A stretch of 64,000 bases of DNA, taken from Mesorhizobium sp. Lineage in GTDB: Bacteria; Pseudomonadota; Alphaproteobacteria; Rhizobiales; Rhizobiaceae. Below the pieces are notes generated by a model, which saw only the letters and a list, made by a program, of their open reading frames with translations, did no database searches and was not told the DNA's origin. The stretch lies in contig JAIPUZ010000086.1 in assembly GCA_022833215.1 (NCBI GenBank), forward strand, positions 1 to 64,000, written 5' to 3'. Positions within the stretch are counted from its first letter, which is position 1. Each line of letters begins with the position of its first letter. Below, piece after piece: positions 43,075-63,516 of this stretch. Position numbers and translations under genes: made by a program.

Positions 43075-44334
43075 TCAGCCGGACATGGCCAGGGCCGAAA
43101 CCAGTTCCCGGTCCAGCTCGTTCTCGTTCCCGTCGCGATAGATTCCCATCTGGTAGCTGTTGAGGTCCCATATCGACCAGCCGAAGCCATGGGATGCCGC
43201 CACATGCGTCACATCGGACATCCAGCGCCGCCGATGGACCTGCGCCGCCCCCACGAGCCTGTCGGAACGCCGTGTCACGCCGAACTCGCCCATGACGATG
43301 CGCTCACGGGCAATGCCATGGCGATCCGCCCATTTCGCGACGATGGCGAAGTCGTCTTCCACGCGCTGACGGTTCCAGCCGTCGGCAAGAAAGCGCCCGA
43401 GTATGGATTGCGCGTGTTCCCTTGCCGCCGCCCTGGCCGCTTCATCGAGCGGTGCGGCGGCGATGCGCGCTTCCAGAGCGGCCTCGATCTCCTCCGCCGG
43501 AATGGCGTCATAGGGATAGGGAAGATCCGATACATAAGGCGAGGTCACCGCGTCCGGGGTGCCGAAATCCACCCCCTGATGCGTGAAGCTGAGCGGCAGG
43601 TAATAGTGATAGGAATACAGAACGTTGCTGTCGGCATAGGGCGACGGGTCGAGATCGTTCAGGCCGCTGATGCCGCCATAATGCGCGCCCGTGAGCATGA
43701 GCGGCAGGTCGGGCGCGGCCCGCCTTGCCGCATCGTGCAGGGACAGCTGCGCCGCACCCCACACCATCACCTGCGTGCGATGAGCGGCGTTGTTCATGAG
43801 CGGCTCGTTCATCAGTTCCAGCACCACGCGCCCGGTCCGCACATTGGAAAGCATGGCGGCCAGCCTGACGATCATCGCCCTGTACTCGCTAAACAGCGGG
43901 CTCTCCAGATCCTCAAGGATGGACTGCGGTGAATAGAGCGGCACCTGCTCCACCGGATGGCAATCGACAAGCACGTCGAGGCCGAGCGCATGCAGCCGCC
44001 CTATATTGGCGAGCAGCTTCTGTTCCAGCGCGGTCCGGTCGGAACCCTGCAACTGCATGAACGGCCCCACGTCCAGCGAGAGGCGGATGAAATCGAATCC
44101 GGCCGCAGCGAACTCGCGCGCAAGAGCTTCGGGAAAGGCATTGCGCGGCGTCTCGAACGGGCGTGGAAGATAACGGGTGGCGCTTCCCTCCTGAAGGATG
44201 CCCCAGTTCATCATGTTGTGGATTCCCGCACCGCGATGGAGGAGCCGCCTCGTCGTCTGCGCGGCGGCGTCACGAGGCAGGACGGCGAGAGCGCCGGCGG
44301 ACAGGGACAGGAACTGGCGGCGATTCAGGCTCAT
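43075..44334 (-). CDS. Tat-exported glycoside hydrolase family 5
   Basis: A 419-residue secreted hydrolase. The N-terminus has a Tat signal (NRRQFLSLSAGALAVL), so it is exported folded. The (beta/alpha)8 barrel of GH5 shows the acid/base glutamate in LELMNEPL (Glu177) and the nucleophile in IVMGEFGV (Glu350), plus the conserved substrate stretch RLSLDVGPF. The DCHPVEQ and SYHYYLP segments add active-site His residues. GH5 enzymes cut beta-1,4 glucans, mannans and related polymers. Its place at the edge of the polysaccharide locus suggests trimming or turnover of the product. It diverges from the heparinase gene, so the two may share control. Confidence 0.88.
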   Translation of the reverse strand: MSLNRRQFLSLSAGALAVLPRDAAAQTTRRLLHRGAGIHNMMNWGILQEGSATRYLPRPFETPRNAFPEALAREFAAAGFDFIRLSLDVGPFMQLQGSDRTALEQKLLANIGRLHALGLDVLVDCHPVEQVPLYSPQSILEDLESPLFSEYRAMIVRLAAMLSNVRTGRVVLELMNEPLMNNAAHRTQVMVWGAAQLSLHDAARRAAPDLPLMLTGAHYGGISGLNDLDPSPYADSNVLYSYHYYLPLSFTHQGVDFGTPDAVTSPYVSDLPYPYDAIPAEEIEAALEARIAAAPLDEAARAAAREHAQSILGRFLADGWNRQRVEDDFAIVAKWADRHGIARERIVMGEFGVTRRSDRLVGAAQVHRRRWMSDVTHVAASHGFGWSIWDLNSYQMGIYRDGNENELDRELVSALAMSG

Positions 44335-44496
44335 GGGGCAAGCCTCCGATGCTTACGCGACGATGCACGCAAGGGTAGAACAGGGCGCGCGTGAAGGCGA
44401 GCCCTGCTCTGTGCGAGATTGCCGACAAGGTTAGCGCCCGAAATGGAGGCAGCGACGTTAATCGTAATGCAACCCGCCGCTTGCTAAGGCTTTCGC

Positions 44497-46461
44497 ATGT
44501 TGAGACGGCTGGGATGGTATGCGCGGCGCCTCGCCGTCATGGAACGCGGCGAGATCCGCCATCGGATTCGCGAACAGATTGCAAGACGCGCCGCACGGCG
44601 CGAAAACGGCGGCTGGGCGCAATTCGCGATGCCCGGTGCGCGGCCCGTGCCCCTGCCGCTTTTCGCCCCCCTGCTCACGGGCGATCTTTCCGCTCCGGTC
44701 GCAGCGCAGCTCGCCATCGCGGCCGAAGCATTCCGTTCGGGCAAACTCAGGCTGCTGAACCGCGACTGGCCGCAAACCATCCTCGACGGGGCAGGCAGCG
44801 TTGCACCGGACGTCTGGACCCTCGACCCGGTCAGCGGCACACAGTGGCCCGGCCCGGACGTATCGGCCTTCGATATCGATTTCCGCTTCGAGGGCGGCCA
44901 TCGCGACGTCAAATATGTCGCGGAAGCCAACCGCCTGCATTTCCTCGCGGCCCCGGCAATTCATGCCCGCCGTACGGAAGATGCGACGCTGGCGCATGCC
45001 GTGCTCGGCTCCCTGTTCTCATGGATGCAGGCCAATCCGCCGGGACGGGGCGTCAACTGGTATTCCGGCATAGAGGCCGGCTACAGACTTGCCTCGCTCG
45101 CCTCTGTCGTCACGGTCCTCGATCCATGGATCGACAGCGCTGCCGGCGGGAAACTGGCGTCTTTCGTCGCCGCGCACGGCACATGGCTGGCGCGGTTTCC
45201 GTCGCTCTTTTCATCCGCGAACAACCATCTCGTCGCCGAGGCGATGGGGCTGGTGCTGGCCGCGCGCCTGCTGCCCGACCACCCGCACGCGGCGGACTGG
45301 CTGGCGCAGGGCCGGGGCCATCTCGATGGCAGGACATGCGCCCTGTTTCATGAGGATGGTGTCGGACAGGAGCAGTCGCCTGCCTATGCCGCCTTCACGC
45401 TGGAGATGTTGCTGATCGGCTTCGGGGCCATCGGTCCGGACGCGCCCTCCCCGGCTGCTCGGGAGCGGCTGGGCAAGGCAGCCGCGGCGCTGAACGCCTT
45501 CCTCGATGACGAGGGCCATGTTCCCCTGATCGGCGACGACGACCAGAGCCGCGTGCTTCTGGCCTATGGCAGCGCGGAACCGCGTTATGCGGCCTCCGTT
45601 TGCGCCGCGATCGCCGGATTTCTCCAGCGCCCGGAACTTGCCCCCGCCATTCGCGACCCGCATTGGCGCGACGTCGTATTCGCCGCGCCGCCACCCGGCC
45701 CGGCACCCTCCGACGGCACGACGACCTTTCCGCAGGGCGGCTACACGATCCGGCGCGGCGACATCGCCGGCCGCCGGGTCCATTTCACCTTCGATCACGG
45801 ACCGCTGGGGTTCGGCGCTCTGGCCGCGCACGGCCACGCCGATGCGCTTTCGGTATGGCTGTCGCTGGACGGCCGCCCGGTCCTCGTCGATGCCGGCACC
45901 TATCTCTACCATTCCGAAGGCGAGAACCGCCGCCGCTTCCGCGTGACCGCGGTCCACAACACGCTGACCCTCTCCGGCGCCAGCCAGAGCGAACCTTCCG
46001 GCCCCTTCAACTGGATGCCGCGCCGGGCGCGGGCCAGGCTGGAAAAAGGGGCGGACAGCGTGCCGCTCGACGTGTCTGCCTCGCATGACGGCTATGAAAA
46101 ACGCTTCGGAGTCGTCCATCGCCGCGACATCGCGGAGACCGCATACGGCTTCGACATCACCGACCGGCTGACCGGCGCAACGCCTGACGGCGAGGTGGAA
46201 ATCGCTTTCCTGCTGGCTCCCGATCTCGACGTCACGGCCCTTGACGGGCGCGTGACGGCACGCCGGGACGGGCAGGCCGAAATCGCGCTCGCCGCCCCCG
46301 AAGAGGCTTCCCTCGAAATCATACGCGCGGACGACATATCGGGCCGCGGCTTCCACTCACCGGGCTTCGGCGTGCTGCAGGAGGCGGCGACCGTGCTGTT
46401 CAGGGCGCCTGCAAATGCCATGCGCTGGCGCAGTTCGATCGTGCTCGACCCCGTAACGTGA
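44497..46461 (+). CDS. Heparinase II/III family protein (uronate polymer lyase-like)
   Basis: A 654-residue protein of the heparinase II/III type. An N-terminal alpha/alpha toroid (about residues 80-380, with GVNWYSGIEAGYRLASL and SSANNHLVAEAMGLVL) carries the Asn/His/Tyr region used by these lyases. A C-terminal beta-sandwich follows, beginning in GGYTIRRGDIAGRRVHFTFD with GHADALSVWLS and VDAGTYLYH. No signal peptide is evident, so its location is uncertain; many polysaccharide loci encode such proteins. Heparinase-fold lyases cleave uronic-acid-containing chains by beta-elimination, which fits the adjacent GDP-mannuronate-forming dehydrogenase. Confidence 0.88.
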   Translation: MLRRLGWYARRLAVMERGEIRHRIREQIARRAARRENGGWAQFAMPGARPVPLPLFAPLLTGDLSAPVAAQLAIAAEAFRSGKLRLLNRDWPQTILDGAGSVAPDVWTLDPVSGTQWPGPDVSAFDIDFRFEGGHRDVKYVAEANRLHFLAAPAIHARRTEDATLAHAVLGSLFSWMQANPPGRGVNWYSGIEAGYRLASLASVVTVLDPWIDSAAGGKLASFVAAHGTWLARFPSLFSSANNHLVAEAMGLVLAARLLPDHPHAADWLAQGRGHLDGRTCALFHEDGVGQEQSPAYAAFTLEMLLIGFGAIGPDAPSPAARERLGKAAAALNAFLDDEGHVPLIGDDDQSRVLLAYGSAEPRYAASVCAAIAGFLQRPELAPAIRDPHWRDVVFAAPPPGPAPSDGTTTFPQGGYTIRRGDIAGRRVHFTFDHGPLGFGALAAHGHADALSVWLSLDGRPVLVDAGTYLYHSEGENRRRFRVTAVHNTLTLSGASQSEPSGPFNWMPRRARARLEKGADSVPLDVSASHDGYEKRFGVVHRRDIAETAYGFDITDRLTGATPDGEVEIAFLLAPDLDVTALDGRVTARRDGQAEIALAAPEEASLEIIRADDISGRGFHSPGFGVLQEAATVLFRAPANAMRWRSSIVLDPVT

Positions 46462-46551
46462 CCTTTACCTGTCGGGGTTAGACCGGTTCGGACAGGGATC
46501 GGACGGATTACCGTCGGCGTAACGACAACAAGGCAAAGCGGTCAGACAACC

Positions 46552-47865
46552 ATGAAAATATCCATTTTCGGACTGGGATATGTGGGCACCGTATGCGCGG
46601 CCTGCATGGCCGAGCGCGGCCATGAGGTGATCGGCTGCGATGTCAGCGAATCCAAGGTCGCCCTCATCAATGCCGGCCAGAGCCCGATCATCGAAAAGGA
46701 CATCGGCGAGCTGGTCGCGGCCAAGGTCGCCGCCGGCAGCCTGCGCGCGACGGCCTCGACCGAAGAGGCGATCATGGGCAGCGACCTGTCGCTGCTTTGC
46801 GTCGGCACCCCGTCGCGGCCCAACGGCTCGCTCGACCTGTCGGCCGTCGAGGCGGTGGCGCGGCAGATCGGCGCGGTGCTCGCCACCAAGGACAGCTACC
46901 ATTCCGTCGTCATCCGCTCCACAGTCCTGCCGGGAACGCTGGCCGACCTCGTGGTGCCGGCGCTGGAAGAAGCTTCCGGCAAGAAGCTGGGCGTCGCCTT
47001 CGGCGTTGCCTCCAACCCCGAATTCATGCGCGAAGGCTCGGCCGTCGCCGACTTCAACAATCCCGCCAAGACCGTGATCGGCGCCGAGGACGAGACCACG
47101 CGCAAGCGGCTGCTGGAACTCTATGACGGCCTGCCGGGGCAGACCATCGTGACCGAGCCGCGGCTGGCGGAGCTGGTGAAGTACACCGACAACACCTGGC
47201 ACGCGCTGAAAGTGGCCTTCGGCAACGAGATCGGCAATGTGTGCAAGGCAGCCGGCGTCGACAGCCACGACCTGATGAAGGTGTTCTTCGCGGACACCAA
47301 GCTCAACATCTCCAGCGCCTATCTGCTGCCGGGGTTTGCCTTCGGCGGCTCCTGCCTGCCCAAGGACGTGCGCGCCATCAACGCCTATGCGGTCCAGCAC
47401 GACGTGGAAGCGCCGCTGCTGAAATCGCTGATGCCTTCCAACAAGCAGCAGATCGAACGCGCCCTGCAATGGGTGCTCGGCCACGGCAAGCGCAATGTCG
47501 GCTTCCTCGGCTTCTCCTTCAAGGCCGGCACGGACGACCTGCGCGAAAGCCCCTATCTGGAGCTGATCGAACGCCTGCTCGGCAAGGGCTGCGACATCCG
47601 CATATTCGACCAGAACGTGTCGCTGGCGAAACTGGTCGGCGCCAACAAAGCCTATCTGATGAACGCCATCCCCCATGTCACCCAGCTGATGGTGCCGTCG
47701 GTCGATGACGTGGTGAAGCACGCCGACATTCTGGTGGCGACAAGCCGCTCGCCCGAATACGAGGCGGTGGTGGAAAAGATGCGACCCGATCAGGTGCTGC
47801 TGGACATGGCGCGCCTTCCCAACATCGAGCGCGTTGCGGGGACCTATGACGGCATCAACTGGTAG
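46552..47865 (+). CDS. algD: GDP-mannose 6-dehydrogenase, AlgD type
   Basis: A 437-residue nucleotide-sugar dehydrogenase. The N-terminal NAD motif is GLGYVGTVCA. The catalytic cysteine is Cys268 in GFAFGGSCLPKDVRA, the same residue number as in Pseudomonas AlgD (436 residues), and other AlgD-like stretches follow: LRESPYLELIERLLGKG and DIRIFDQNVSLAKL. The GFAFGGSCLPKD form is typical of GDP-mannose enzymes, whereas UDP-glucose dehydrogenases usually have GxGFGGxCFPKD. The product would be GDP-mannuronic acid for the polymer. UDP-sugar specificity remains possible. The next gene overlaps by 20 bases. Confidence 0.85.
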   Translation: MKISIFGLGYVGTVCAACMAERGHEVIGCDVSESKVALINAGQSPIIEKDIGELVAAKVAAGSLRATASTEEAIMGSDLSLLCVGTPSRPNGSLDLSAVEAVARQIGAVLATKDSYHSVVIRSTVLPGTLADLVVPALEEASGKKLGVAFGVASNPEFMREGSAVADFNNPAKTVIGAEDETTRKRLLELYDGLPGQTIVTEPRLAELVKYTDNTWHALKVAFGNEIGNVCKAAGVDSHDLMKVFFADTKLNISSAYLLPGFAFGGSCLPKDVRAINAYAVQHDVEAPLLKSLMPSNKQQIERALQWVLGHGKRNVGFLGFSFKAGTDDLRESPYLELIERLLGKGCDIRIFDQNVSLAKLVGANKAYLMNAIPHVTQLMVPSVDDVVKHADILVATSRSPEYEAVVEKMRPDQVLLDMARLPNIERVAGTYDGINW

Positions 47866-49051
47866 GCGCGTCCTCATCATCGTCGAGAACCTGCCGGTGC
47901 CTTTCGACCGGCGCGTCTGGTCGGAAGCCACAACGCTGGTCAGGGCCGGCTATCAGGTCTCGGTGATCTGCCCGAAAGGCAAGGGCTCGACCGCTTCCTA
48001 CGAGGTGATCGACGGCGTGCATATATATCGCCATTCGCTGCCGCTCGATGCCGAGGGCGTGCTGGGCTATGCGCTGGAATACAGCGCCGCCCTGTTCTGG
48101 GAATTCCTGCTTTCGCTCAAGGTGGCGTGGCAGCGGGGCTTCGACGTCATCCATGCCTGCAACCCCCCGGACACCATCTTCCTGATCGGCGGCTTCTACC
48201 GGCTGTTCGGCAAGAAGTTCCTGTTCGACCACCACGACATCAATCCCGAGCTCTACGAGGCAAAGTTCGGCCGCCGCGATTTCGGCTGGAAGCTGATGGT
48301 GTGGCTGGAACGCCTGTCGTTCCGCACCGCAAACCGCTCGCTTGCCACCAACGAAAGCTATCGGGAAATCGCCATCACGCGCGGCGGCATGGCCCCGGAC
48401 AAGGTGCATATCGTACGCTCCGGCCCCAATCTGGACCGCGTGCGCGAGGTGGAACCGGATCCGAAATGGCGCAACGGCCGCCGCTTCGTCGTCGGCTATG
48501 TCGGCGTCATCGGCAAGCAGGAGGGGCTCGACCTTCTGCTGGAATCGGTCAGCCATCTGGTCAATGTGCGCAAGCGCGACGACATCCAGTTCGTCATCTG
48601 CGGCGGCGGACCCGAGCTGGAAGCGATCAGGGCCGAAAGCGCGGCAATGGGGCTTGGCGACTATGTGACCTTCACCGGACGCTGCCCGGACGAGACGCTG
48701 TTCTCGGCGCTCTCCACCTCCGACGTCTGTGTCAACCCCGACCGGCCGACGGCGATGAACGACAAATCGACCATGAACAAGATCATGGAGTACATGGCGC
48801 TCGGAAAACCGATCGTGCAATATGACCTGCGCGAAGGCCGGTTCTCCGCGCAGGAAGCCTCGCTCTACGCAACATGCACCGATCCGGCCGATTTCGGCGA
48901 CAAGATCGCCGAGCTGCTGGACGATCCCGAACGCCGCGCGGCCATGGGGGATTTCGGACGCGAGCGCGTGCGCAACGAGCTGGCATGGAACTACGAGGCG
49001 CCGAAGCTGCTGGCCGCCTATGAGGCGCTGTTCACGGCACGCGGGAAATAA
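47846..49051 (+). CDS. Glycosyltransferase family 4
   Basis: A 401-residue GT-B glycosyltransferase. The N-terminal domain opens with VLIIVENLPVPFDRRVW, and the donor site has the family E-x7-E-like region in NDKSTMNKIMEYMALGKPIV. GPNLDRV and VGYVGVIGKQEGLDLLLESV are typical. The start ATG 47846 lies inside the end of algD (20-base overlap); TTG 47834 is less likely. The gene is probably translationally coupled to algD, which suggests that this enzyme may be the one using the uronic-acid donor. Confidence 0.88.
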   Translation: MTASTGRRVLIIVENLPVPFDRRVWSEATTLVRAGYQVSVICPKGKGSTASYEVIDGVHIYRHSLPLDAEGVLGYALEYSAALFWEFLLSLKVAWQRGFDVIHACNPPDTIFLIGGFYRLFGKKFLFDHHDINPELYEAKFGRRDFGWKLMVWLERLSFRTANRSLATNESYREIAITRGGMAPDKVHIVRSGPNLDRVREVEPDPKWRNGRRFVVGYVGVIGKQEGLDLLLESVSHLVNVRKRDDIQFVICGGGPELEAIRAESAAMGLGDYVTFTGRCPDETLFSALSTSDVCVNPDRPTAMNDKSTMNKIMEYMALGKPIVQYDLREGRFSAQEASLYATCTDPADFGDKIAELLDDPERRAAMGDFGRERVRNELAWNYEAPKLLAAYEALFTARGK

Positions 49052-49063
49052 GGGCGACGGCTC

Positions 49064-50968
49064 ATGTGCGGCATCTTCGGATTTCATGCCAGGGCGCGCC
49101 TGTCGCTCGATGCCGAACTGAACGCGGCCACGGATCTTCTGGCCCATCGCGGGCCGGACGGGCGCGGCACCTTTGCCGCGCGCAGCCCGGATGGCGAATG
49201 GCAGGTCGGGCTTGGTCACCGCCGCCTGTCGATCCTCGACATCGAGGGCAGCCCGCAGCCGATGCATTCGCACGATGGCCGCTACACCATCGTCTACAAT
49301 GGCGAGATCTATAACTATATCGAGCTGCGCGCCGAGCTTGCGGAACGCGGCCACCGCTTCGCCACGCAGGGCGATACCGAAGTGCTGATCGAGGCGTGGC
49401 GGGCCTGGGGCGAGGATTGCCTCTCCCGCTTCAACGGCATGTTCGCCTTCCTTTTGTGGGACAACCGGACCGGCCGCCTGATCGCGGCGCGCGATCCGTT
49501 CGGCAAGAAGCCGCTGTTCGTCGCAAGGGCGGAAGGCGCGCATGTCTTCGCTTCGGAAATCGAGCCGCTGCGCAAATTTCCGGGCGTCGACGACCGGCTG
49601 GACCAGGATTCGCTGCGGGAATATCTGAGCTACCGCTATGTGCCGGGACCGGCGACCTTCTTCAGGGGTATCGCCAAGGTGCCGCCCGGCACCTTCATGG
49701 CGCTGGACGGCGACACGGTTTCCGCGACCCGCTATTTCACGACGCCGTTCTCGCGAACCACACCCGACATCACCAACTTCGACGAGGCGCTGCGCCTGTT
49801 CTCGGACCGGCTCGACGCGGCGGTGCAATTGCGGCTGCGCTCCGACGCGCCGTTCGGCGCCTATCTGTCCGGCGGGCTCGATTCCTCGATGATCGTGGCG
49901 CTGATGAGCCGGCACATGGACAAGCCGGTCTCGACCTTCTCGGTCGGGTTCGACGTGCCCGGCTCCTCCGAGCTGCCCTATGCGAGGCAGGTCGCCGATG
50001 CATTCGGCACCGACCACCATGAGCTTGCCGTGGGCCTGAACGAGTTCACCTCCGTTTGGGAGGAGGCGGTGCTGCGGCGCGGCGCGCCGGTGGCCGAGCC
50101 CTCCGACCTGCCTGTGCTGCTGCTGTCGAAAATGGCGAGCCGCAGCGTCAAGATGGTGCTGACCGGGGAAGGCGCCGACGAGCTTCTGGGCGGCTATCCA
50201 AAGCACCGCGCCGAACCGTGGGTCGCGCTCTACCAGCGGCTGGTGCCGGGCGTCCTGCACGACGCCGTCGTCGCTCCCGGCGCGCGCGCCCTGCCCTATG
50301 CGCTGCGTCGCGTGAAGACCGTTGCGGGCGTCGCCGGCATTCGCGACCAGCAGGCCCGCATGGCTGCCTGGTTCGGTGGCGGCGATGCCGAACTGGCCGG
50401 GGCGCTCTATGCGGGCGCGCCCGCTTCACGCGATCTCGACCCCCTGCCCTTCGCGGCTGACGGAGCCGCCAGCGCCCTGAAGCGCATGCTGCATTTCGAC
50501 CAGACCTCGTGGCTGCCCGACAACCTGCTGGAACGCGGCGACCGCATGATGATGGCCGGCTCCATCGAGGGTCGCATGCCGTTCATGGATGTGGGACTTG
50601 CCGAACTCGTCGCCCGCTTCCCGGACGCCTTCCTGACCGGCGCGCCGAAGGGAAAGCGCGTGCTGCGCACGCTGGCCGCCCGCATGCTGCCGGAGGCCAT
50701 CGTAACGCGAAAGAAAGTCGGCTTCCGGGTGCCGGTGGAGCAATGGTTCAGGACCGGCATGGCCGACCAGATGCGCGACCTCCTGCAATCGGGCGATGCA
50801 ACGGTCAGGCAGGTCTGCAACGCCGGCGAAATCGACCGGCTGATGAGCGAGCATCTGGGCGGCAGGCACAACCACGAAAAGCTGCTGTGGGCGCTTGCCA
50901 ATCTCGAGCAGTTCTTCCGCATTTTCCGGCCGGCGACGGGCCAGATCGCCGGACGCTCGTCCGGATGA
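49064..50968 (+). CDS. Asparagine-synthase-like glutamine amidotransferase
   Basis: A 634-residue enzyme with an N-terminal Ntn glutaminase domain (catalytic Cys2 in MCGIFGFHA; also LAHRGPDGRG and YNGEIYNY) and a C-terminal synthetase domain with the ATP-pyrophosphatase loop SGGLDSS. Both domains are complete. In a housekeeping setting this would be AsnB. In polysaccharide loci, homologues such as WbpS amidate uronic acids, and the run algD, GT4, this gene suggests that role here. It starts 12 bp after the glycosyltransferase stop. Confidence 0.88.
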   Translation: MCGIFGFHARARLSLDAELNAATDLLAHRGPDGRGTFAARSPDGEWQVGLGHRRLSILDIEGSPQPMHSHDGRYTIVYNGEIYNYIELRAELAERGHRFATQGDTEVLIEAWRAWGEDCLSRFNGMFAFLLWDNRTGRLIAARDPFGKKPLFVARAEGAHVFASEIEPLRKFPGVDDRLDQDSLREYLSYRYVPGPATFFRGIAKVPPGTFMALDGDTVSATRYFTTPFSRTTPDITNFDEALRLFSDRLDAAVQLRLRSDAPFGAYLSGGLDSSMIVALMSRHMDKPVSTFSVGFDVPGSSELPYARQVADAFGTDHHELAVGLNEFTSVWEEAVLRRGAPVAEPSDLPVLLLSKMASRSVKMVLTGEGADELLGGYPKHRAEPWVALYQRLVPGVLHDAVVAPGARALPYALRRVKTVAGVAGIRDQQARMAAWFGGGDAELAGALYAGAPASRDLDPLPFAADGAASALKRMLHFDQTSWLPDNLLERGDRMMMAGSIEGRMPFMDVGLAELVARFPDAFLTGAPKGKRVLRTLAARMLPEAIVTRKKVGFRVPVEQWFRTGMADQMRDLLQSGDATVRQVCNAGEIDRLMSEHLGGRHNHEKLLWALANLEQFFRIFRPATGQIAGRSSG

Positions 50969-53721: not shown

Positions 53722-53879
53722 GGAGAAACCATCACAAACTGCCTGCATGACGTGGCGCCCCCGGAGTGGCTGGCCGGAGACGCGCCTGACCACAGTAATG
53801 GTCACGAAACGCTAAGTTCGGCTTAAGGCGACCGCGGACGGGCGCAGCCTGCCACCGGCTCATGCGCGGCCGTCCGGCA

Positions 53880-55010: not shown

Positions 55011-55047
55011 GGGAGCTTTCCTGAAAGCGCGGATAAACGAGACCACG

Positions 55048-56463
55048 TCATGATTGACACTGCGACGGAAGCCGGACACCGCCCGCTCCCGCAACTGGCG
55101 TACCGCGGCCGATCCGTGACAGCACATCGTTGGCGCTGTTGGTCACATGCCCCGAAGAAACAGTTTCCCTGCCCTTGCCGATCAGCGCCAGCATGATGAC
55201 GGCAGGAACGCTCATCATGTTGCTCTTGCCGCTGATGCCCACGGTGGTGGAAAGAATGAGGAAGATGTAGGCAAGGGGCAGGATGGCGCCGCGCCCGGCA
55301 GCCCGCAACATGTCGACGAACCAGCCGGCTATGCCGAACCACAGCACGGCCGTCATGACGACGCCGAACCGCAGCGCATGGCCCGCCCATGAATTTTCTA
55401 TGCCTTCGGCGAGACCGTTGAGCCGCACCTGAGTATCGAGGCTGATAAGGCGGTAACCCAGCAACAGATTTCGCAAGCTGATATCTTCAAACAGCCTGAA
55501 CAATACAACCCTGCTCTGTGCACTGCCCTTGTCGTTGACAAAGCGATTGAGGAAATTGTCGAAGATACCGGCCTGATAAAGAACGAACAGGGTGAGGGTA
55601 ACGAGCGGGAGGACCAGCAGGACGGAAACCAGCATCCGCTTGCTGACCTCGCCACCTCGAAGGAACATCAGGAATTTCAAACCGAGAACTGTCGCCACAG
55701 TCGCATAGACAATCAGGAATGAAACCCGGGAGCCGATGAAGGGCATGGCGGCCATGCACAGGAGGATGACCGGCACCCGCCAGCGGGCTCCGAGGCCGCG
55801 CACATTGCTGACAGTCGTCAGGATGATGGTGTAGACGCCGGTTGCCAGAGCTCCTCCCAGCGGATGCCCCAACAGCGCGGTTGCCCGATACTCCCATTCC
55901 TGTTCCCTGTCATTCAGGACGAAGGGAAAAAGGCGCCAGCCGGAAAGACCCTCGACCAGCGATAGGCAACAATTGACGACCATCAGGATATGAACCGTGC
56001 GCGCGATATGAAGGCGGGAGCGGTCCCCGACATCGGCGAACAGCATGTAAATTATGGCCGCGACCATGATGGCGTCGATCAGAAAGGAGGCGGGCTGGTC
56101 CCCCTTGAAGCGGGAGATGAATATCCACAGCAGGATGCAGGCAACGAGCAGGAAGGTGGATCCGAGGCAGCGCGCCATCAGATCGAACATGTACGCAACG
56201 GGGTTGGGGTTGGCGATCACCGCCAGTCCGAGCGCCATGACAAACAGATAGGTTGCGGGATGGATCTTCGTAATGATCGAGCCACCCGGCGAATTGTAGG
56301 GTATGCCGAAAAATTCCAGAGCGAAGCCCGACAACGAAAACATCGCCACAACGCCGAGGAAAAGGAGCAGGTCCACGAGCCCGCGCGCCTTTGGCCGCGC
56401 AATGCTTGGCACTGAATGCTCCATCGAGCTACCGCCTGTTGTCAGTTGCGCTCTCATCCCCAT
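55048..56463 (-). CDS. VpsF-like polysaccharide polymerase/ligase membrane protein
   Basis: A 471-residue protein with about eleven hydrophobic helices and a large loop in the second half. The layout resembles Wzy polymerases and O-antigen ligases, and the sequence reads like the VpsF group of exopolysaccharide proteins (YRATALLGHPLGGALATGVY and LLLGYRLISLDTQ). It is the best candidate for the polymerase of this locus. It lies 37 bp upstream of the acyltransferase gene in the same direction. Its start could be ATG 56463 or ATG 56424 (MEHSVPSIARP). Confidence 0.8.
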   Translation of the reverse strand: MGMRAQLTTGGSSMEHSVPSIARPKARGLVDLLLFLGVVAMFSLSGFALEFFGIPYNSPGGSIITKIHPATYLFVMALGLAVIANPNPVAYMFDLMARCLGSTFLLVACILLWIFISRFKGDQPASFLIDAIMVAAIIYMLFADVGDRSRLHIARTVHILMVVNCCLSLVEGLSGWRLFPFVLNDREQEWEYRATALLGHPLGGALATGVYTIILTTVSNVRGLGARWRVPVILLCMAAMPFIGSRVSFLIVYATVATVLGLKFLMFLRGGEVSKRMLVSVLLVLPLVTLTLFVLYQAGIFDNFLNRFVNDKGSAQSRVVLFRLFEDISLRNLLLGYRLISLDTQVRLNGLAEGIENSWAGHALRFGVVMTAVLWFGIAGWFVDMLRAAGRGAILPLAYIFLILSTTVGISGKSNMMSVPAVIMLALIGKGRETVSSGHVTNSANDVLSRIGRGTPVAGAGGVRLPSQCQS

Positions 56464-56803: not shown

Positions 56804-57904
56804 GTGAAGAGCGGGAAATCCGAGAATATTCGCACTGAACAGCTGGAATCTGCTCAACTGGAAAGGCAGCAGAATCCTTTTTTTCAGCCCTGGGTGCTGG
56901 ATAATGCCCGCAGCCATCTTCTTGCTCGTCACGAAAGGTTCATTTCCATCGGCGGCGACGGGGAAATCGTTCTTCCGCTTGTGGTCGATCGGCGCATACC
57001 GGGCTTGCTGCCGACCGTTGCCCACATATGGGGGCACAAGCACTGCTTCGACTCGACGCCACTGAAGCAGAATCCCTCGCGCGACGATATGGCGACCCTG
57101 TTCGATTCCCTTGCCGGACAGGGCATCGACATATTGAGATGGCGCCGCATGCCTACAGACACGGATTTTTCCGCGGCATTGATCGATTTCCTCGCAGAGC
57201 GCGGTCTCGCGCATGAAGAAACGAAGCGCTATCAACGCTCCCTCCTTCTGGCCGGCAGCAACGATCCGGAAAGCTTCCTTGACCGTCTCAGCAAAAAGCG
57301 CCGGAAAGACTTGCGCCGGTGCCGGCAACGCCTGTCGGAGATGGGCACAGTGGAGTTCGTGACATATCAGGGACCGCATGACGCGGCACAATGGTGTCAC
57401 GACTTCATCGAGCTGGAAGCTTCGGGCTGGAAGGGTCCTTCCGGCACCCGTACGGCGATAGGCTGTTCGGAAAACGAACGCGCCTTCTTCGAAGCCATGG
57501 CAAAGGACGGTGCGGCCAGAGGCGATATCATCATTCACAGCCTGACACTGGACTCCAGGCCGATTGCGATGACGGTCAATTTCCGCTCGGGCACATGGGT
57601 CTGGGCCTACAAGGTCGCCTATCGCGAGGAACTGGCCAATCTGTCGCCCGGCGTACAGCTGGAGGTGGAAGGCAGTGTCGCATTCCTGAACGACCCGAAC
57701 ATTGCCTGTGTCGATTCCTGCACAGCATCGGGGCATAGCCTGATGGACAATCTGTGGTCCGGCCGGCGGCCCATGGCGGAATACCTGATCGCCGTCCGCC
57801 CGTCGGTCAACCCTGTGATACGGGCCAGCGGCCTGCTCTGGCGCGGCTATCTCTCACTGAAAAACACAGCGCGCGAAAAGCTCAAAAGCCCGCGCCCGTC
57901 GTAA
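56804..57904 (+). CDS. FemAB/BioF2-type GNAT acyltransferase
   Basis: A 366-residue protein of the GNAT-fold group that includes FemAB, BioF2 and CelD-like proteins of polysaccharide loci. The central DFLDRLSKKRRKDLRR-type basic segment (FLDRLSKKRRKDLRRCRQRL) precedes the acyl-CoA domain, with FIELEASGWKG, GDIIIHSLTLDSRPIAMTVN and WVWAYKVAYREELANLSPG. It probably transfers an acyl group to an amino sugar of the polymer. The start is GTG 56804 with AGAGG 5 bases upstream. A paralogue lies at 59339-60547 on the other strand. Confidence 0.8.
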   Translation: MKSGKSENIRTEQLESAQLERQQNPFFQPWVLDNARSHLLARHERFISIGGDGEIVLPLVVDRRIPGLLPTVAHIWGHKHCFDSTPLKQNPSRDDMATLFDSLAGQGIDILRWRRMPTDTDFSAALIDFLAERGLAHEETKRYQRSLLLAGSNDPESFLDRLSKKRRKDLRRCRQRLSEMGTVEFVTYQGPHDAAQWCHDFIELEASGWKGPSGTRTAIGCSENERAFFEAMAKDGAARGDIIIHSLTLDSRPIAMTVNFRSGTWVWAYKVAYREELANLSPGVQLEVEGSVAFLNDPNIACVDSCTASGHSLMDNLWSGRRPMAEYLIAVRPSVNPVIRASGLLWRGYLSLKNTAREKLKSPRPS

Positions 57905-57956
57905 CGACATCCGCCGCGCCGGCTTTGGCCGGAAGCCTGCAGGCGCGACAGGCACC

Positions 57957-57992
57957 CGGTTCGGGCGGCACGTATCGCCCGAGCCCGAACCG
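57957..57992. terminator. Hairpin between convergent genes
   Basis: GGTTCGGGC (57958-57966) pairs with GCCCGAACC (57983-57991), with further GC pairing inside. It lies between the converging acyltransferase and glycosyltransferase genes. There is no clear T run on either side, so intrinsic termination is uncertain. Confidence 0.4.
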
Positions 57993-58014
57993 TAGTCTCA
58001 CCTATGCCGAAACG

Positions 58015-59331
58015 TCATCGGGGCTGGCGGATGCGAGCCCGATCAGGCGCGAGATGCGACAGATATAATCTCTCCACCGTATCTGCCAGATGCCTGTAGT
58101 CGCGATTTGCCCTGACCCACGCCGGGCCCCGTGCGCCCATCGCTTCCGCCTTCTGCGGGTCGGTGAACAGGCGGGCCACGCCTTCCGCTATCGCCTTGCC
58201 TGTATATGCGGTGACGAAGCCTGCCCCGCTGCCGTGGATCACTTCGTTCTGGTCATAATGCACCGTACCTACGACCGGACGTCCCATGGCCAGATACTCG
58301 ACCAGCTTCGTAGGCGTCGCGACCTGCTGGGCCGAATCCATCATGAACGGCGACAGGCACACATCAACGCGCTTCACCCAGCCGAGAGCTTCTGCAAGCG
58401 GAAGGCGTCCAGTGAAAATTACACGGTCGGACACACCGAGTTTTTCCATCCGGGCCTCGAGATCCTTCCGCTCGAGGTCGGAAACCGCACCGATCAGGAC
58501 AAGGACGGCATCATGACCTTCCGCCACCAGCTCCGCCAGAGCGTCCATTGTGAGATTGGTGAGGATGCTCACCACATCGGCGCACAGATAGGCCATGCTC
58601 TTCCTGCCGGCCAGCCGCGGGTCCTCGATCGCGCGGATGGAGTCCGCGTTGTAGCGCTCCGTGGTGACCCCCATGGGAACGGGTGTCATCTTCTCCATCG
58701 GTATTCCGCGAAAACCCACGCGTTCGCGCATGCGCTTCGACTGCACGATGATGTGGCTGCTGAGAGGCAGGGCCAGCCTGTAAAACAGAAAGTCGGCCAC
58801 GATCGCATAAACGATCCGCACGGCCCTGGCAGGCAAGCTCATCGAGTTCAGATTGAGCAGGGCATCGCGCAACCGCCCTTCCAGAACCGGATAGCTCATC
58901 CAGAACAGGCAGGGCGTTCCGGAGATCTTGCAGGCGAGGGTATATGTAATGGCCCACAAAGGCTGGTCCCTGATCTGGACTACATCATAGTCCCCGCGCG
59001 CTGCCGACCATGCCAGCTTCAGGCGAAGCCAGTTCTCCGCCATCCGGTAGCGCAGCACACCGAATCTTTCCGACATCTGGCGACGCGCGACATGGAACCG
59101 CTCGGCGCCGCGCTCGTCCACACGCGCCGGTCCATCCTGAACGGGGCGCAGGCTCCAGTCGATGTTCAGCCCCCGGCTGACAAGATGATTGGAAAACAGC
59201 TCGACAAGATCGACGCGAAAGGCCGGATAATCGTCAGGGGCTACGAACAGCATTCTTACACCCGAGAGCGCCCCCTGTTCCGGCGCAACCGCGGGCGCTT
59301 CCGCTTCAGCCTGCATCGTCAAACCCGCCAC
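58015..59331 (-). CDS. Glycosyltransferase family 4
   Basis: A 438-residue GT-B glycosyltransferase with VRMLFVAPDDYPAFRVDLVE at the N-terminal domain and the donor-site region FMMDSAQQVATPTKLVEYLAMG, in which TPTKLVEYLAMG is the usual nucleotide-sugar loop. VIFTGRLPLAEALGWVKRVDV is also typical. It starts 7 bp after the stop of the upstream N-acyltransferase gene, so the two act in one leftward operon. A second possible start is ATG 59316. The sugar is unknown. Confidence 0.88.
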   Translation of the reverse strand: MAGLTMQAEAEAPAVAPEQGALSGVRMLFVAPDDYPAFRVDLVELFSNHLVSRGLNIDWSLRPVQDGPARVDERGAERFHVARRQMSERFGVLRYRMAENWLRLKLAWSAARGDYDVVQIRDQPLWAITYTLACKISGTPCLFWMSYPVLEGRLRDALLNLNSMSLPARAVRIVYAIVADFLFYRLALPLSSHIIVQSKRMRERVGFRGIPMEKMTPVPMGVTTERYNADSIRAIEDPRLAGRKSMAYLCADVVSILTNLTMDALAELVAEGHDAVLVLIGAVSDLERKDLEARMEKLGVSDRVIFTGRLPLAEALGWVKRVDVCLSPFMMDSAQQVATPTKLVEYLAMGRPVVGTVHYDQNEVIHGSGAGFVTAYTGKAIAEGVARLFTDPQKAEAMGARGPAWVRANRDYRHLADTVERLYLSHLAPDRARIRQPR

Positions 59332-59338
59332 AGATAGC

Positions 59339-60547
59339 TCATGTAGAAAACCGTTGGGACAGATATGCTTTTGCGAGCCTCAGATACCGCCAAAGGAACC
59401 TGTTCCGCCGCATCAGATTCTTCACCTGCTCACCATAATGGACTGCCCTGATCGTAGCCGAGCCGAGGCCTGTGAAGGCGACATGGATGTCATCCAGTTC
59501 GTGGATGATGTCGCACCAATGCGTCTTGTATTCTTCATACCCCACGCCCAGATCGAACGCGGACAATCCATTTTCGCAACATTGTTCTATGTGCCTGAAC
59601 AGAAGAGCCCGCCCCGGGCCAAAAGACACAAGTTCATCATTGGCGTAGGTAGAGAAGTAAGCATTTACGCGGCCGTGATGGATTCCCGAGCCCTTCACAG
59701 CCCGTGTTTTGCCACCGACCGAAAGTTCCATCATCTCCAGAAGCGGTTCTTCCATGCCTGCGGAGCGCTCGAGGAGCTCATGGAAAAAGTCCTGAACCCC
59801 CGGAGCGGCGAAGCTGTTGGCCTTTCCCTGCTCTGCAAGCCTCTGGCCCTTTTGCATAAAAAAGAAATCGAGGGCCGCCCGGGCGCGCTCAGGATCGCGC
59901 ACGGTGTCATAGACAAGAGGACCGGCCTCGCTCATCTTGCGTTCCTGTTTGCGAATGTTTTTCCTGCGCCTCGAACCGTCGGTTCTCGCGAGCACAGCCG
60001 CAAACCCGCCTGAGAGGTCGAATGAATATCCTTCCGTGGGAGACGGACGGGACTGCAATTTCGCAAGCGGCTGGGCTATTCCGTCATGGAGCCTCGGCGT
60101 CCTGTCCAAAAGGGCGCAGTCGACATCAGCAAGGGCAGGCCCGAGCATCGCTTCAACTTCAGAACGCCGCAGACGTTCCATCGCGGCCACGGCTTCCCTG
60201 CTCCAGAGGCCAAAATTGTAGCTGGAATGGTCGCCGCCGATCCATGTTGCAATGCGCACGGGACCGGTTCTGGAAATCTGCAGCGGCAGAATGAACGCCG
60301 GCTGCCCATCGAGCCTGCCCAGAACGATGGCGGGGCGTGCCTTCAGATGCGGCAGGACATGACGGACGTTGGAATCCACCCATTCGTAGCGCTGGAAAAC
60401 GGTTGCGACGCCGGCCGATTCGAGCTGTCGCCACTCCTTCTCGATATCCGATGGCCTGTCGAAGCTTTCGACCTGGAAAGGAGAGCCTGTTCGATCGGCG
60501 ACCCCGGCCGCCGCTACGCTGGAAGCCGTACTCGGCTGCGACGTCAT
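59339..60547 (-). CDS. FemAB/BioF2-type GNAT acyltransferase (CelD-like)
   Basis: A 402-residue GNAT-fold protein like the CelD/BcsL and BioF2 group. The core has DGSRRRKNIRKQERKMSEAG (basic segment), FFMQKGQRLAEQGKANSF, GGKTRAVKGSGIHHGRVNAY and FSTYANDELVSFGPGRALLF. The C-terminal FDLGVGYEEYKTHWCDI is highly typical of the family. It is a probable N- or O-acyltransferase for polysaccharide sugars, related in fold but not close in sequence to the protein at 56804-57904. It is the first gene of a leftward pair with the GT4. Confidence 0.85.
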   Translation of the reverse strand: MTSQPSTASSVAAAGVADRTGSPFQVESFDRPSDIEKEWRQLESAGVATVFQRYEWVDSNVRHVLPHLKARPAIVLGRLDGQPAFILPLQISRTGPVRIATWIGGDHSSYNFGLWSREAVAAMERLRRSEVEAMLGPALADVDCALLDRTPRLHDGIAQPLAKLQSRPSPTEGYSFDLSGGFAAVLARTDGSRRRKNIRKQERKMSEAGPLVYDTVRDPERARAALDFFFMQKGQRLAEQGKANSFAAPGVQDFFHELLERSAGMEEPLLEMMELSVGGKTRAVKGSGIHHGRVNAYFSTYANDELVSFGPGRALLFRHIEQCCENGLSAFDLGVGYEEYKTHWCDIIHELDDIHVAFTGLGSATIRAVHYGEQVKNLMRRNRFLWRYLRLAKAYLSQRFST

Positions 60548-60834
60548 ATTTCCTGAAGCTCCCTGGTACCGTTGCAGGCATGAATCAACTCGTTCAGCCG
60601 GGCGGAGATATCACACCGTGATCCAAGCATATCTCCGGTTAAGGAATAGTCTTGAGCCGTTCAGAAAAACACTGCAGATACAGGCGCAGGGGTACGGCAG
60701 GCATGTTTTGCCGCGTCGGCGGCTTGTAACGGAAACACGGATATGTGGCCGATTTCAGAATAACGCGTGACCGATATGAGCACAATCGGGCTGGAGTTTT
60801 CTACCCGACCTTCATCGGCATGACCCATTGCCCG

Positions 60835-61980
60835 TCACGGAGCACGCCCCGAGCGGGCATCTCCGGTAAGCACCTGTGCAGCAGGCGCAGGATCTGGCCT
60901 GCCCCTTCTGAGACGGAAGCGCAGATTCAGCGCAGGACGCTCCACAAATGTCCAGGAGAGCCAGGCGACCAGCGCTGCGAGGACGGTTGCCGATATCGCA
61001 TTTGCGAAGACGCCCTGCCCCGGAAAGAAGCTGATGAGGCATTGCTGGAGGAAAAAACCCCAAACATATATTCCATAGGAAAGGTCGGTGCGATCCGCCG
61101 CATCCTGCAGCCATCCGGCCTGAAAGCTGCCCAGCCAGAAACTCAGATAGGCGGCGGCGACCATTCCCAGCGGCAGTTTCAGGAGCGATCCGGACGCCAG
61201 ACAAAAGCCGAGCGGAATCCAGATCGCCAGCAGCCAGGGAAGGCTCAGCCTGATGCGATCCCGCTCGAACCAGGCGGTCACCCCCAGATAGAATGCGAAG
61301 AAGAGGCGGGCCAACCGGGTAGCGAGTTCACTGTGCCCGGTCATTTCGGGCAGCAGCAACAGGACACAGGAAACGCCCAGAACAACCGCCAGCAGAAGCC
61401 GCCGGATACCGGCCCCGGCCTTCAGGAAGCCAAGCGCAAGCATGAAGATTATGAGGCTTACGTAGCAGATCACCTCGTAGCGGATGGTCCAGATGGGAAT
61501 ATTGAGGACACCCGGCCAGGGGTTGTCTTCGAAAACCCCTGCAAGCGTGGTTTCAGACGAGAAGATAAGGAGGCTCCTGGCCAGGAAGGGACCGATATTT
61601 GCAACCGTCCAGTATTCGCCGGCCGACACGCTGGTGAGGAACAGGCCAGACACGATCACGATCGCCACGCAGACACAGACGAGAGCCGGCATGATGCGCA
61701 GGATTCGGGCCAGCACGAAGTCGACCACGTCGCGCGACCGCTCCCAGCTCGATGCCACCATGAAACCGGACAGGGAGAAAAATATGTTCACCGCATGACT
61801 TCCCAGCGAATAGCCGGTCACGTCCCGCAGGGGCTCCGAGGCGTCCTCGCCCAGCACGACGGCATAGGAATGGGTCCAGATCACGAGCACGGCCGCGATC
61901 ACTCTGATGATGCCATAGCTGTTGGCGCCACGCCTTGCGGCGCTCGCCAGAAAAAAGGGATCGCTCCCGCGTTTTGACAT
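60835..61980 (-). CDS. Acyltransferase 3 family membrane protein
   Basis: A 381-residue acyltransferase 3 protein with about ten helices. The active-site segment is VIRVIAAVLVIWTHSYAVV-like (IIRVIAAVLVIWTHSYAV), and NIFFSLSGFMVASSW and FVLARILRIMPALV are family hallmarks. AGGAGAAAGGA before ATG 61980 (MSKRGSDPFF) decides the start; the frame is open to 62046 without support. It is monocistronic and diverges from the flippase gene. Confidence 0.9.
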   Translation of the reverse strand: MSKRGSDPFFLASAARRGANSYGIIRVIAAVLVIWTHSYAVVLGEDASEPLRDVTGYSLGSHAVNIFFSLSGFMVASSWERSRDVVDFVLARILRIMPALVCVCVAIVIVSGLFLTSVSAGEYWTVANIGPFLARSLLIFSSETTLAGVFEDNPWPGVLNIPIWTIRYEVICYVSLIIFMLALGFLKAGAGIRRLLLAVVLGVSCVLLLLPEMTGHSELATRLARLFFAFYLGVTAWFERDRIRLSLPWLLAIWIPLGFCLASGSLLKLPLGMVAAAYLSFWLGSFQAGWLQDAADRTDLSYGIYVWGFFLQQCLISFFPGQGVFANAISATVLAALVAWLSWTFVERPALNLRFRLRRGRPDPAPAAQVLTGDARSGRAP

Positions 61981-62190
61981 CGATCCTTTCTCCTGCTGAA
62001 ACTGCGCTTTGAACACCAATTCCGGTTCCGGAACCCTGTTCGCCATCGCCAGCCTCGCCGCCGCTCCCTTCCGTCCGCAAACCTTCGGTCATTGTCAAGC
62101 TTCGCGACAAGGAAACGAACGCTAACGGCTGCCTCATAAATTGATGCTATTGGCCTACGACGCTCGGCTTACAGGGGAACAACAGAATCC

Positions 62191-63516
62191 ATGCGGCTAC
62201 TGAAAAAACTGCTCAGCCGGTCGGCCGATATCCGGACATTCGTGTTCGGGCTCATCTGGTCGACGCTCGGCACGGTGGCCGTGCGGCTGACGCCGCTGAT
62301 CACCACGGTGCTGATCTCGCACTGGTTCGGCATCGAATCCGTCGGCAAGTTCGCCGTCACCTACGGAACGCTGATGTCGGCAAGCATGCTGGCGGCCACC
62401 GGCGTCAGCCTCATGGCAACGCGCAACATCGCCGCCTTCGCCCACACCGAACCCGACAACGCCGGGCGTCTTGCCGGCATGGCCGTGCTGCTGGCGGGCG
62501 GAGCCGCGGCAGCGCTGGCGCTTGCCATATATCTGTTTTCGGACGAGATCGCAGAACGTATCCTGAAGCAGCCCGAGCTCGCCTTCTATCTGCGCGTCAT
62601 CTCTCCGATCATCGTCGTCAGCGCGCTGAACAACGTACAGACCGCCATACTGAGGGGGCTCCAGCAATTCAGGACAACCGCCCGGCTCGACATGATCATG
62701 GGTGTCCTGATGATCGCCTCGGTTCCCGCCGGGCTCTATCTTTACGGGCTGACGGGCGGCTTTGCGGCGCTGGGCCTTGCCTACCTTGCAGGTTGCATGG
62801 TCACGACGCCTGCGATGCTGCATGCATTGCGCTCGCACGGCATCCGCTTCTCGTTCAGCGGCTCGCTGTCGCAATGGCCGATGATCACCCGCTACGCCAT
62901 ACCGGCGCTGCTCGCCAGCCTCCTCTACGAGCCGGTGAACTGGATCTGCACCATGATCATCGTCAACAAGCCCGACGGGCTGGAGCAGGTCGGCCTCTAC
63001 TTCATCGCCATGCAGCTGGAGACGCTGCTTTTGTTCGCGCCGCAGATCGTTGTGCAGGTGCTTATCCCGATGCTCTCTTCCGGCTTCGGCGAAAAGGACA
63101 GCCGCCGCGTGCGCAACATACTGGCGATGGGCATCGGCACCAACCTTGCCATCGCGGTCGGCTTCGTTGCCGTGATGATGCTGTTCGGCGACTGGTTCCT
63201 GCTCCTGTTCAAGCTCGACCCGGCGCGCGACTGGCCGATCTTCATGATCGTGGTTCTTGCCGCGGCCATGATCGCCTGCGCCCTGCCGCTCGGGCAGGTT
63301 CCCGTGTCCTCCGGCTATATGTGGATCGGGCTTTCGATCACCGGCGGCTGGGCGATGACGTTCATCATCGGCACATGGATGCTTCAGGATCAGGGCGCGA
63401 AAGGCATCGTCATCGCCCGCGCCATTGCATGGGGCCTGCAAACGCTGGTCTATATCGGCTTCACCCGCTTTGCCGTCAGCCGCACCACATCACGCCCGAA
63501 AGATGTGCCATCATGA
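62191..63516 (+). CDS. Wzx-type polysaccharide flippase
   Basis: A 441-residue protein with about twelve predicted transmembrane helices, of the MOP superfamily of polysaccharide exporters. Features such as TVLISHWFGIESVGKFAVTY in the first helices and a paired layout of two six-helix halves are typical. It would flip lipid-linked repeat units across the inner membrane for the polymerase encoded at 55048-56463. GGGGAACAACAGAATCC precedes the ATG, with only a weak ribosome binding site. No gene follows on the same strand before the window end. Confidence 0.88.
   Translation: MRLLKKLLSRSADIRTFVFGLIWSTLGTVAVRLTPLITTVLISHWFGIESVGKFAVTYGTLMSASMLAATGVSLMATRNIAAFAHTEPDNAGRLAGMAVLLAGGAAAALALAIYLFSDEIAERILKQPELAFYLRVISPIIVVSALNNVQTAILRGLQQFRTTARLDMIMGVLMIASVPAGLYLYGLTGGFAALGLAYLAGCMVTTPAMLHALRSHGIRFSFSGSLSQWPMITRYAIPALLASLLYEPVNWICTMIIVNKPDGLEQVGLYFIAMQLETLLLFAPQIVVQVLIPMLSSGFGEKDSRRVRNILAMGIGTNLAIAVGFVAVMMLFGDWFLLLFKLDPARDWPIFMIVVLAAAMIACALPLGQVPVSSGYMWIGLSITGGWAMTFIIGTWMLQDQGAKGIVIARAIAWGLQTLVYIGFTRFAVSRTTSRPKDVPS

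Follow-up and report, generated by a model that had tools for sequence, protein, structure and literature searches.

How might a bacterium build a mannuronic acid polymer from a locus that lacks an alginate synthase? The question is raised by a polysaccharide locus at positions 43075..63516 of a 64,000-nucleotide stretch of Mesorhizobium sp. DNA (hereafter the window; positions 1–64000 of the 89,489-bp contig JAIPUZ010000086.1). The source is a soil/sludge bacterium; of the named relatives found, Aquamicrobium defluvii DSM 11603 is the nearest. Mannuronate polymers usually call to mind alginate, the product of a membrane synthase (Alg8/Alg44 in the algD operon of Pseudomonas and Azotobacter). 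The locus studied here holds an AlgD-type dehydrogenase, a GT4 glycosyltransferase, an AsnB-like amidotransferase and genes for Wzx/Wzy-type assembly. It very probably directs the synthesis of a mannuronic-acid-containing surface polymer by a non-alginate route, the chemistry of the polymer being predicted from the genes. We give the whole explanation, a Wzx/Wzy heteropolysaccharide locus with a mannuronate module, a probability of roughly 0.6.

Genes were called and then scanned against Pfam and NCBIfam, with 30 proteins around the locus included in the Pfam scan. Every gene named in the initial annotation of this DNA was recovered in its place; one gene of the locus, g41, had been left out.

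The dehydrogenase is of the AlgD type

Gene g37 (46552..47865, plus strand) carries the catalytic-type Cys268 and almost certainly encodes a GDP-mannose 6-dehydrogenase (GMD). A phmmer comparison scored it at 466 bits against Pseudomonas aeruginosa AlgD (1mfz), with a UDP-glucose enzyme next at 254 bits. A tree of 73 rows places g37 and AlgD in a 65-row AlgD-type set split from the UDP-glucose enzymes at 98/94; AlgD's own position inside this set is weak (85/77), on a long branch flagged by the tree program. His217, Leu126, Ala263, Arg122 and Cys213 have been described as specific to GMDs, the last being present in just 25 of 45 members of the family (PMC4794789). Four of these five residues are kept in g37 (R122, L126, H217 and A263), at positions where four non-AlgD (UDP-sugar) PDB reference chains have K, P, L and G. 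A UDP-glucose dehydrogenase identity was rejected on the bit score, the tree split and the family residues. The initial annotation had called the enzyme AlgD-type, to be abandoned if it clustered with UDP-glucose enzymes, and no such clustering occurred.

Two residues weigh against this assignment. The residue of g37 at AlgD Cys213, a partial and non-universal feature, is Asp, and AlgD Arg259 is replaced by Leu in all 11 rows of the clade of g37. At the latter position, G100 (a related genome) and two plasmid copies have Met, and the remaining AlgD-type rows have Lys or Arg; the available portion of a docking study lists Arg259 among the key active-site residues (PMC10619135). At 1e-100, GMD was found in 7 of 101 related genomes, the source being the sole match in its genus and the other six sharing only its order.

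A GT4 glycosyltransferase accompanies the dehydrogenase

The first 20 bases of g38 (47846..49051, plus strand), a GT4 glycosyltransferase by Pfam, are shared with the end of g37. A scan of named genomes yielded 53 loci, and profile searches were run over the 48 with GMD identity of at least 52% (L040–L087). A g38 homolog lies on the GMD stretch in 46 of these 48, and the remaining two are short contigs (L085, which ends ~770 bases after the GMD, and L087, of 5.7 kb). One further locus, L090, is cut inside the GMD and was excluded from this count, and a Duganella stretch (L126/L127) without homologues of the window was set aside, that genome being represented by L050. No g38 was found in L088, L089, L091 or L092; judged by their residues, the first two of these are AlgD-type and the other two are not. 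Among eight lower-identity AlgD-type GMDs (these two and six same-order enzymes at 41–46%), one of them on a 4-kb contig, g38 is on the stretch in a single case, G098, where it lies ~4 kb from the GMD on the other strand. In the Phyllobacteriaceae loci L046–L049, which have both the heparinase-fold gene and g38, the GMD is on the strand opposite to g38 and several kilobases away, and AsnB is absent.

Searched alone against 398 genomes drawn across the phylum, g38 gave 13 matches in 12 genomes, 11 of them evaluable once its own genome and the contig-edge match G359 were excluded. Seven of these 11 have an AlgD-type GMD as their immediate neighbor. The adjacency holds in six of six matches at 58% identity or more (G386, G240, G439, G276, G100 and G483) and in one of five at 46–55% (G375, and not G084, the two in G061, or G217). 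A clean limit at 55% identity was dropped, since G375 with a GMD and G061 C1 without one both fall at 54–55%.

Plasmids repeat this pattern. Among 21 records with a GMD at 1e-100, all eight with GMD identity of at least 50%, including those of Streptomyces and Deinococcus, have g38 directly beside it (six read in fetched loci, Nonomuraea and a second Shinella by coordinates). Below 50%, a g38 match at 1e-90 lies beside the best GMD place in 1 of 13 records (Rhodovastum); the count uses the best place also for Rhizobium sp. T136, where GMD matches at two. Conversely, plasmid g38 homologs of at least 56% identity have an AlgD-type GMD beside them in 8/8 cases (residues read for five plus two, and one by coordinates at 52% identity). 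A plasmid that is not among the GMD matches at 1e-100 may still carry the gene, because L196–L200 and L202, with an AlgD-type GMD beside g38, are not among them. The plasmid of Deinococcus aetherius joins asnB, a heparinase-like gene, GMD and the GT4 gene in one run; that of Streptomyces sp. KN37 carries a priming transferase, GMD, GT4, two Wzz genes and asnB; and a Shinella plasmid has GMD, GT4, a heparinase-like gene, a GH5-type gene, an O-antigen-ligase-family gene and GumC. Altogether, the dehydrogenase–GT4 pair was seen in Alpha-, Beta- and Gammaproteobacteria, Actinomycetota, Deinococcota, Planctomycetota and Armatimonadota. The impression of a rhizobial oddity, left by the initial annotation, did not survive this recurrence of the core in other phyla.

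We regard g38 as probably a mannuronosyltransferase using GDP-mannuronate, a role suggested by its gene linkage. An unlikely alternative is that the GDP-mannuronate user is one of the other two GT4 enzymes, g40 (51134..52237, minus strand; PF00534, 107 bits) or g45 (58015..59331, minus strand; PF13692, 58 bits), and that g38 transfers a different, accompanying sugar. Several observations lean towards this alternative and weigh against the proposed role. Relatives of g38 at 46–55% identity occur without a GMD: four of the 11 evaluable genome matches lack one, as do most of nine plasmid records fetched in this identity range (L201–L208 and L210), only two of which (L202 and L210) have an AlgD-type GMD within 5 kb. 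Rhodovastum and Nonomuraea also have a GMD near a 46–55% g38 by coordinates; other Sinorhizobium, Rhizobium, Bradyrhizobium and Aureimonas records lie outside this sample. In a g38 tree, G061 C1 and G084, half of the four rows lacking a GMD, nest with G098 among GMD-linked rows; this tree holds 31 of 59 rows, with the Oxalobacteraceae thinned, short rows removed, and L163, L164 and the other two GMD-less rows absent. Moreover, GT4 donors are unreadable from sequence, and the nearest PDB sequences to g38 use GDP-mannose and other donors, with weak scores. Against the alternative, g38 is the glycosyltransferase that keeps company with the GMD in different phyla, in most cases immediately following it and in several groups overlapping it, and the relatives of g40 and g45 in the Oxalobacteraceae loci are only ~27–36% identical.

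Four loci show the GT4 branch in other settings. On Sinorhizobium meliloti pSymB (L208), a GT4 47% identical to g38 lies by genes for a phosphopantetheine-binding protein, for an XrtA-associated decarboxylase and AMP-ligase, and for type I secretion, with no GMD within 5 kb; this is perhaps a second use of the branch. In Deinococcus ficus and D. taeanensis (L205 and L206), a g38-like GT4 and AsnB are accompanied by a right-handed beta-helix protein in the position of the heparinase-fold protein. On the linear plasmid of Streptomyces sp. KN37 (L209), the priming transferase–GMD–GT4–Wzz–AsnB set directly adjoins a type I polyketide synthase gene.

An asparagine-synthase-like protein as candidate uronate amidase

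Two genes downstream of g37, as first annotated, g39 (49064..50968, plus strand; PF00733, 315 bits) encodes an asparagine-synthase-like protein with the glutaminase Cys2 (MCGIFG) and the synthetase PP-loop SGGLDSS. Such proteins have published precedents as amidating enzymes, since WbpS-type AsnB relatives are needed for uronamides. As described in the available part of one report, deletion of PGN_1234 abolished the uronamide, and the protein was named WbpS after a P. aeruginosa protein placed in TIGR03108 (PMC7468200); a wbpS mutant of Helicobacter pullorum had a matching glycan change, according to the portion available of another (PMC6025236). By analogy, the balance tips towards g39 amidating a uronate in a WbpS-like manner.

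The competing view, which we find improbable, holds that g39 is an ordinary asparagine synthetase that leaves the polymer unmodified. It gains from g39 clearing, at 450 bits, the cut-off of 267 set for the general AsnB model TIGR01536 asn_synth_AEB and missing the curated cut-off of TIGR03108 (452 versus 816.9 bits), which the AsnB copies of Janthinobacterium and Nevskiaceae also miss, at 537 and 547 bits. The genome holds two AsnB-like genes only (at 1e-20). The other one is 34% identical to g39 and has LRTAPA at the position of the TTIRAS stretch of Escherichia coli AsnB; neither copy has the E. coli stretch, so none stands out as the housekeeping enzyme. No plasmid matches g39 at 1e-120, the Deinococcus and Streptomyces AsnB copies being distant, a further point against the proposed role. 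Linkage cuts both ways: an AsnB-like protein is on the stretch in just 18 of the 48 loci, yet these GMD-linked copies span Alpha-, Beta- and Gammaproteobacteria and one Acidobacteria contig. Also contrary to an ordinary synthetase, the TTIRAS stretch (TTVRAS in human ASNS), which we take to bind aspartate, is PV[AS]EPSD in 18 of 19 GMD-linked copies, L087 being the one that differs; g39 itself has PVAEPSD.

The heparinase-fold protein and the GH5 hydrolase

Upstream of g37, g36 (44497..46461, plus strand) matches the heparinase II/III family (PF07940, 155 bits, scored on a shorter 610-aa form). Position 44497 is its most likely start, giving 654 aa, since relatives share the resulting N-terminal segment. 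The initial annotation had read it as a heparinase-fold lyase; the fold stands, with this start, but g36 and its relatives show no evident signal peptide by eye (no predictor applied), so that secretion as an alginate lyase does not suggest itself readily. A predicted model (predicted local distance difference test score, pLDDT, 84.3) best matched heparinase III; alginate lyases and human dermatan sulfate epimerase 1 were further matches. The heparinase III-type (PL12) fold is present with catalytic-type residues. A heparinase-fold protein occurs in 43 of the 48 loci. In three of the five exceptions (L063, L074 and L086) the contig begins less than 450 bases from the GMD; the fourth, L087, is the 5.7-kb contig, and L070 has none nearby. 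It is possible, at somewhat less than even odds, that g36 acts as a cytoplasmic C5-epimerase or trimming lyase on lipid-linked mannuronate, giving a polymer with L-guluronate or a 4,5-unsaturated end in place of unmodified mannuronate.

On the opposite strand, g35 (43075..44334) encodes a GH5 hydrolase (PF00150, 67.8 bits, cut-off 23.5) with NEP and GEFG motifs. Its N-terminal RRQFL is a twin-arginine-type motif as read from the sequence (no predictor of twin-arginine export applied), in keeping with the first description of the protein. A cellulase-family hydrolase also follows GMD, GT4 and heparinase on Shinella and Rhizobium plasmids. On the Rhizobium sp. CC-CFT758 record (L213:8775-10572), the annotation splits the heparinase-like gene into two pieces that overlap.

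Genes for heparinase-fold proteins and GH5 enzymes typically serve degradation, which invites the idea of a relic or scavenging locus whose lyase and GH5 hydrolase degrade foreign uronate polymers, with biosynthesis secondary. We consider this very improbable: the reading frames are open, gene order follows that of A. defluvii DSM 11603 at 90–96% DNA identity apart from exchanged cassettes, and Wzx, Wzy-type and Wzz proteins are present together with three glycosyltransferases.

Assembly, export and GDP-mannose supply

A Wzx-type flippase (g48; 62191..63516, plus strand; PF01943, 50.7 bits, cut-off 28.2), a VpsF-family membrane protein proposed as a Wzy-type polymerase (g43; 55048..56463, minus strand; NF038256, 240 bits, cut-off 150) and a 641-aa Wzz/GNVR chain-length protein (contig 64909–66834; PF02706 and PF13807) are found together in the locus. 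As the initial annotation had proposed, these families fit a Wzx/Wzy-type rather than an alginate-type locus, and from its gene content the locus is very likely one for a Wzx/Wzy heteropolymer. No Alg8/Alg44-like gene is among the 30 scanned proteins, and an alginate locus was rejected on this ground; Alg8 was not searched genome-wide. The AlgE family (PF13372) had no match in the source genome, a negative with a weak control, as only 1 of 14 control genomes was positive.

To the right of the window, where the initial annotation had looked for the remaining machinery, the contig supplies a third acyltransferase-3, the Wzz/GNVR protein and GalE, and neither a priming transferase nor Wza. Five PF02397 and four PF02563 matches exist genome-wide, all on other contigs. 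The 641-aa protein has no Walker A match, and a Wzc with an active BY-kinase domain was not found there. The missing priming and export genes weigh against the whole explanation, as does PF01050, which did not rise above the cut-off in the source genome. Two mannose-1-phosphate guanylyltransferase-like genes, matching the guanylyltransferase part of a ManC-type enzyme from other loci at 42% and 40%, lie on other contigs, one of them ~11 kb or less from priming-transferase and Wza-type matches on contig C43. A ManC-type enzyme is encoded on the same strand, downstream within ~5 kb of the GMD, in 31 of 32 Oxalobacteraceae loci (L050–L069, L071–L073 and L075–L083, the exception being L066), which points to GDP-mannose.

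Accessory genes and cassette exchange

Besides the three GT4 enzymes, the flippase and the VpsF protein, all as first annotated, family scans confirmed two GNAT/FemAB-like N-acyltransferases, g44 (56804..57904, plus strand; PF13480, 75 bits) and g46 (59339..60547, minus strand; PF13480, 103 bits). Two acyltransferase-3 proteins fall within 43075..63516, namely g42, proposed to act in O-acylation (53880..55127, minus strand; PF01757, 85 bits), and g47 (60835..62046, minus strand; 76 bits). The third, g49 (63770–64789, minus strand; 91 bits), has positions 63770..64000 inside the window. The previously omitted g41 (52234..53805, minus strand) is GINT1_N-like (PF24793, 105 bits) and aligned with four relatives at 57–94% identity; its AlphaFold model is poor (pLDDT 59.8), too low for a structure search. 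An open reading frame at 56717–57736, on the strand opposite to g44, had no family match. Beyond the Wzz/GNVR gene lie GalE (contig 66943–67938; TIGR01179, 430 bits, cut-off 262) and a 358-aa protein (68303–69379) that matched no family, and from ~70 kb on the contig carries sarcosine-oxidase-like and peptide ABC-transporter genes.

The contig is collinear with DSM 11603 at 90–96% DNA identity outside swapped segments, and g37 is 100% identical (to the nearest percent) to the GMD of that strain. A contaminant contig was rejected, since collinearity and the identical GMD indicate that the contig is not foreign, even though no other genome of its genus among the 101 gave a GMD match. Positions 56467–62122 and 63419–64909, which hold GNAT, GT4 and acyltransferase-3 genes, have no collinear match; DSM 11603 instead has a 73% GT4 and a 57% GNAT between an outer-membrane protein gene and GH5. 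The G+C fraction is 0.59–0.61 over 52.5–65 kb and 0.64–0.67 on both sides. From the sequence comparison, the two segments are read as cassette exchange. By analogy with antigen-type loci, we infer that a stable core module is accompanied by acyl and glycosyltransferase cassettes that are exchanged.

An amino acid:[carrier protein] ligase operon in relatives

Another module occurs in the same polysaccharide locus in five Mesorhizobium relatives and G100. As seen in Mesorhizobium sp. ES1-1 (L108:6766-14398), it encodes a carrier protein, an acyl-CoA dehydrogenase, an amino acid–[acyl-carrier-protein] ligase (NF005479, 493 bits, cut-off 357), a DUF1839 protein, a GH2-N protein and a double hydrolase. 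Matching operon places are L097–L105, L109–L110 and L022; among the six loci of the five relatives and G100, NCBIfam identified the ligase once, and BLAST clustering did so for the rest. The operon is absent from the source genome at 1e-20 and present in 15 of 101 relatives, among which G100 is the only one of the seven GMD-bearing genomes. Nine further ligase places were noted, and one to four neighbors were scanned at five. Four of these hold, respectively, HipA and integrase genes, mandelate-racemase-like and GntR genes, ABC-transporter genes, and solute-binding and oxidoreductase genes; the fifth has a priming transferase neighbor. The operon looks like a mobile module, because it is absent from the source genome and found in unrelated places. 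The role of such ligases is stated to be unknown in the accessible part of a 2022 review (PMC9437257). By analogy, they may serve in FemAB/VimA-type aminoacylation of a sugar, a testable idea.

Relation to known systems

The locus shares with the Pseudomonas/Azotobacter algD operon an AlgD-type dehydrogenase with the family residues, a protein of uronate-lyase fold and acylation genes, and differs in having Wzx, VpsF and several GT4 enzymes. The 43%-identity GMD of L028, which lacks g38, has MBOAT and Sel1 proteins as neighbors, an arrangement that alginate loci share. Like the WbpS pathways (P. aeruginosa O6, P. gingivalis A-type lipopolysaccharide and the H. pullorum N-glycan), the locus combines an AsnB-like amidotransferase and a nucleotide-sugar dehydrogenase among glycan genes, and it has GNAT/FemAB-like N-acyltransferases, comparable to VimA as far as the available text describes it (PMC7468200). 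The differences are the GDP-mannose-type dehydrogenase and the g39 score below the TIGR03108 cut-off. XrtA-associated families are among the best NCBIfam scores of g38, g40, g45 and g39, as in XrtA/PEP-CTERM loci; however, these scores are far below the curated cut-offs, and no exosortase is among the genes scanned. With the Vibrio vps locus, which has other sugars and genes, the VpsF-family protein is shared.

A literature search found no description of this gene set. Two published polysaccharide clusters, one with wbpS genes (PMC3684757) and one with an exosortase-associated amidotransferase (PMC11340318), carry no mention of mannuronate synthesis in the portions available.

A proposed non-alginate route to mannuronate polymers

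Gene identities, the AlgD-type assignment and the conserved linkage suggest the following order of steps. The g37 enzyme would oxidize GDP-mannose to GDP-mannuronic acid, and g38 would transfer mannuronic acid from this putative donor onto a lipid-linked repeat unit in the cytoplasm, replacing the Alg8/Alg44 synthase. The carboxyl of a uronic acid, most simply that of mannuronic acid, would be amidated by g39, while g40 and g45 would add other sugars and the acyltransferases would decorate the sugars. The unit would be flipped by g48 and polymerized by g43, with chain length set by the Wzz-type protein. Priming and outer-membrane export would be provided from elsewhere in the genome, presumably by the distant genes, and the GH5 hydrolase g35, with its twin-arginine-type signal, may trim or release the polymer.

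A wider reading, which we offer as doubtful, is that several phyla share an undescribed second route in which an AlgD-type dehydrogenase and a dedicated GT4, a cytoplasmic heparinase-fold epimerase or trimmer, AsnB-like amidation and Wzx/Wzy assembly yield mannuronamide or guluronamide heteropolymers. The novelty would then lie less in the exact gene set than in the dehydrogenase–GT4 pair, which would mark a non-alginate mannuronate pathway in several phyla. The proposal predicts mannuronic acid in polymers of Duganella, Massilia, Janthinobacterium and Shinella; these genera are well cultured, and the claim is therefore cheap to test. If true, g38 would be a sequence handle for a GDP-mannuronate glycosyltransferase, usable in glycoengineering, and the conserved pair would represent a modular alternative to the alginate synthase.

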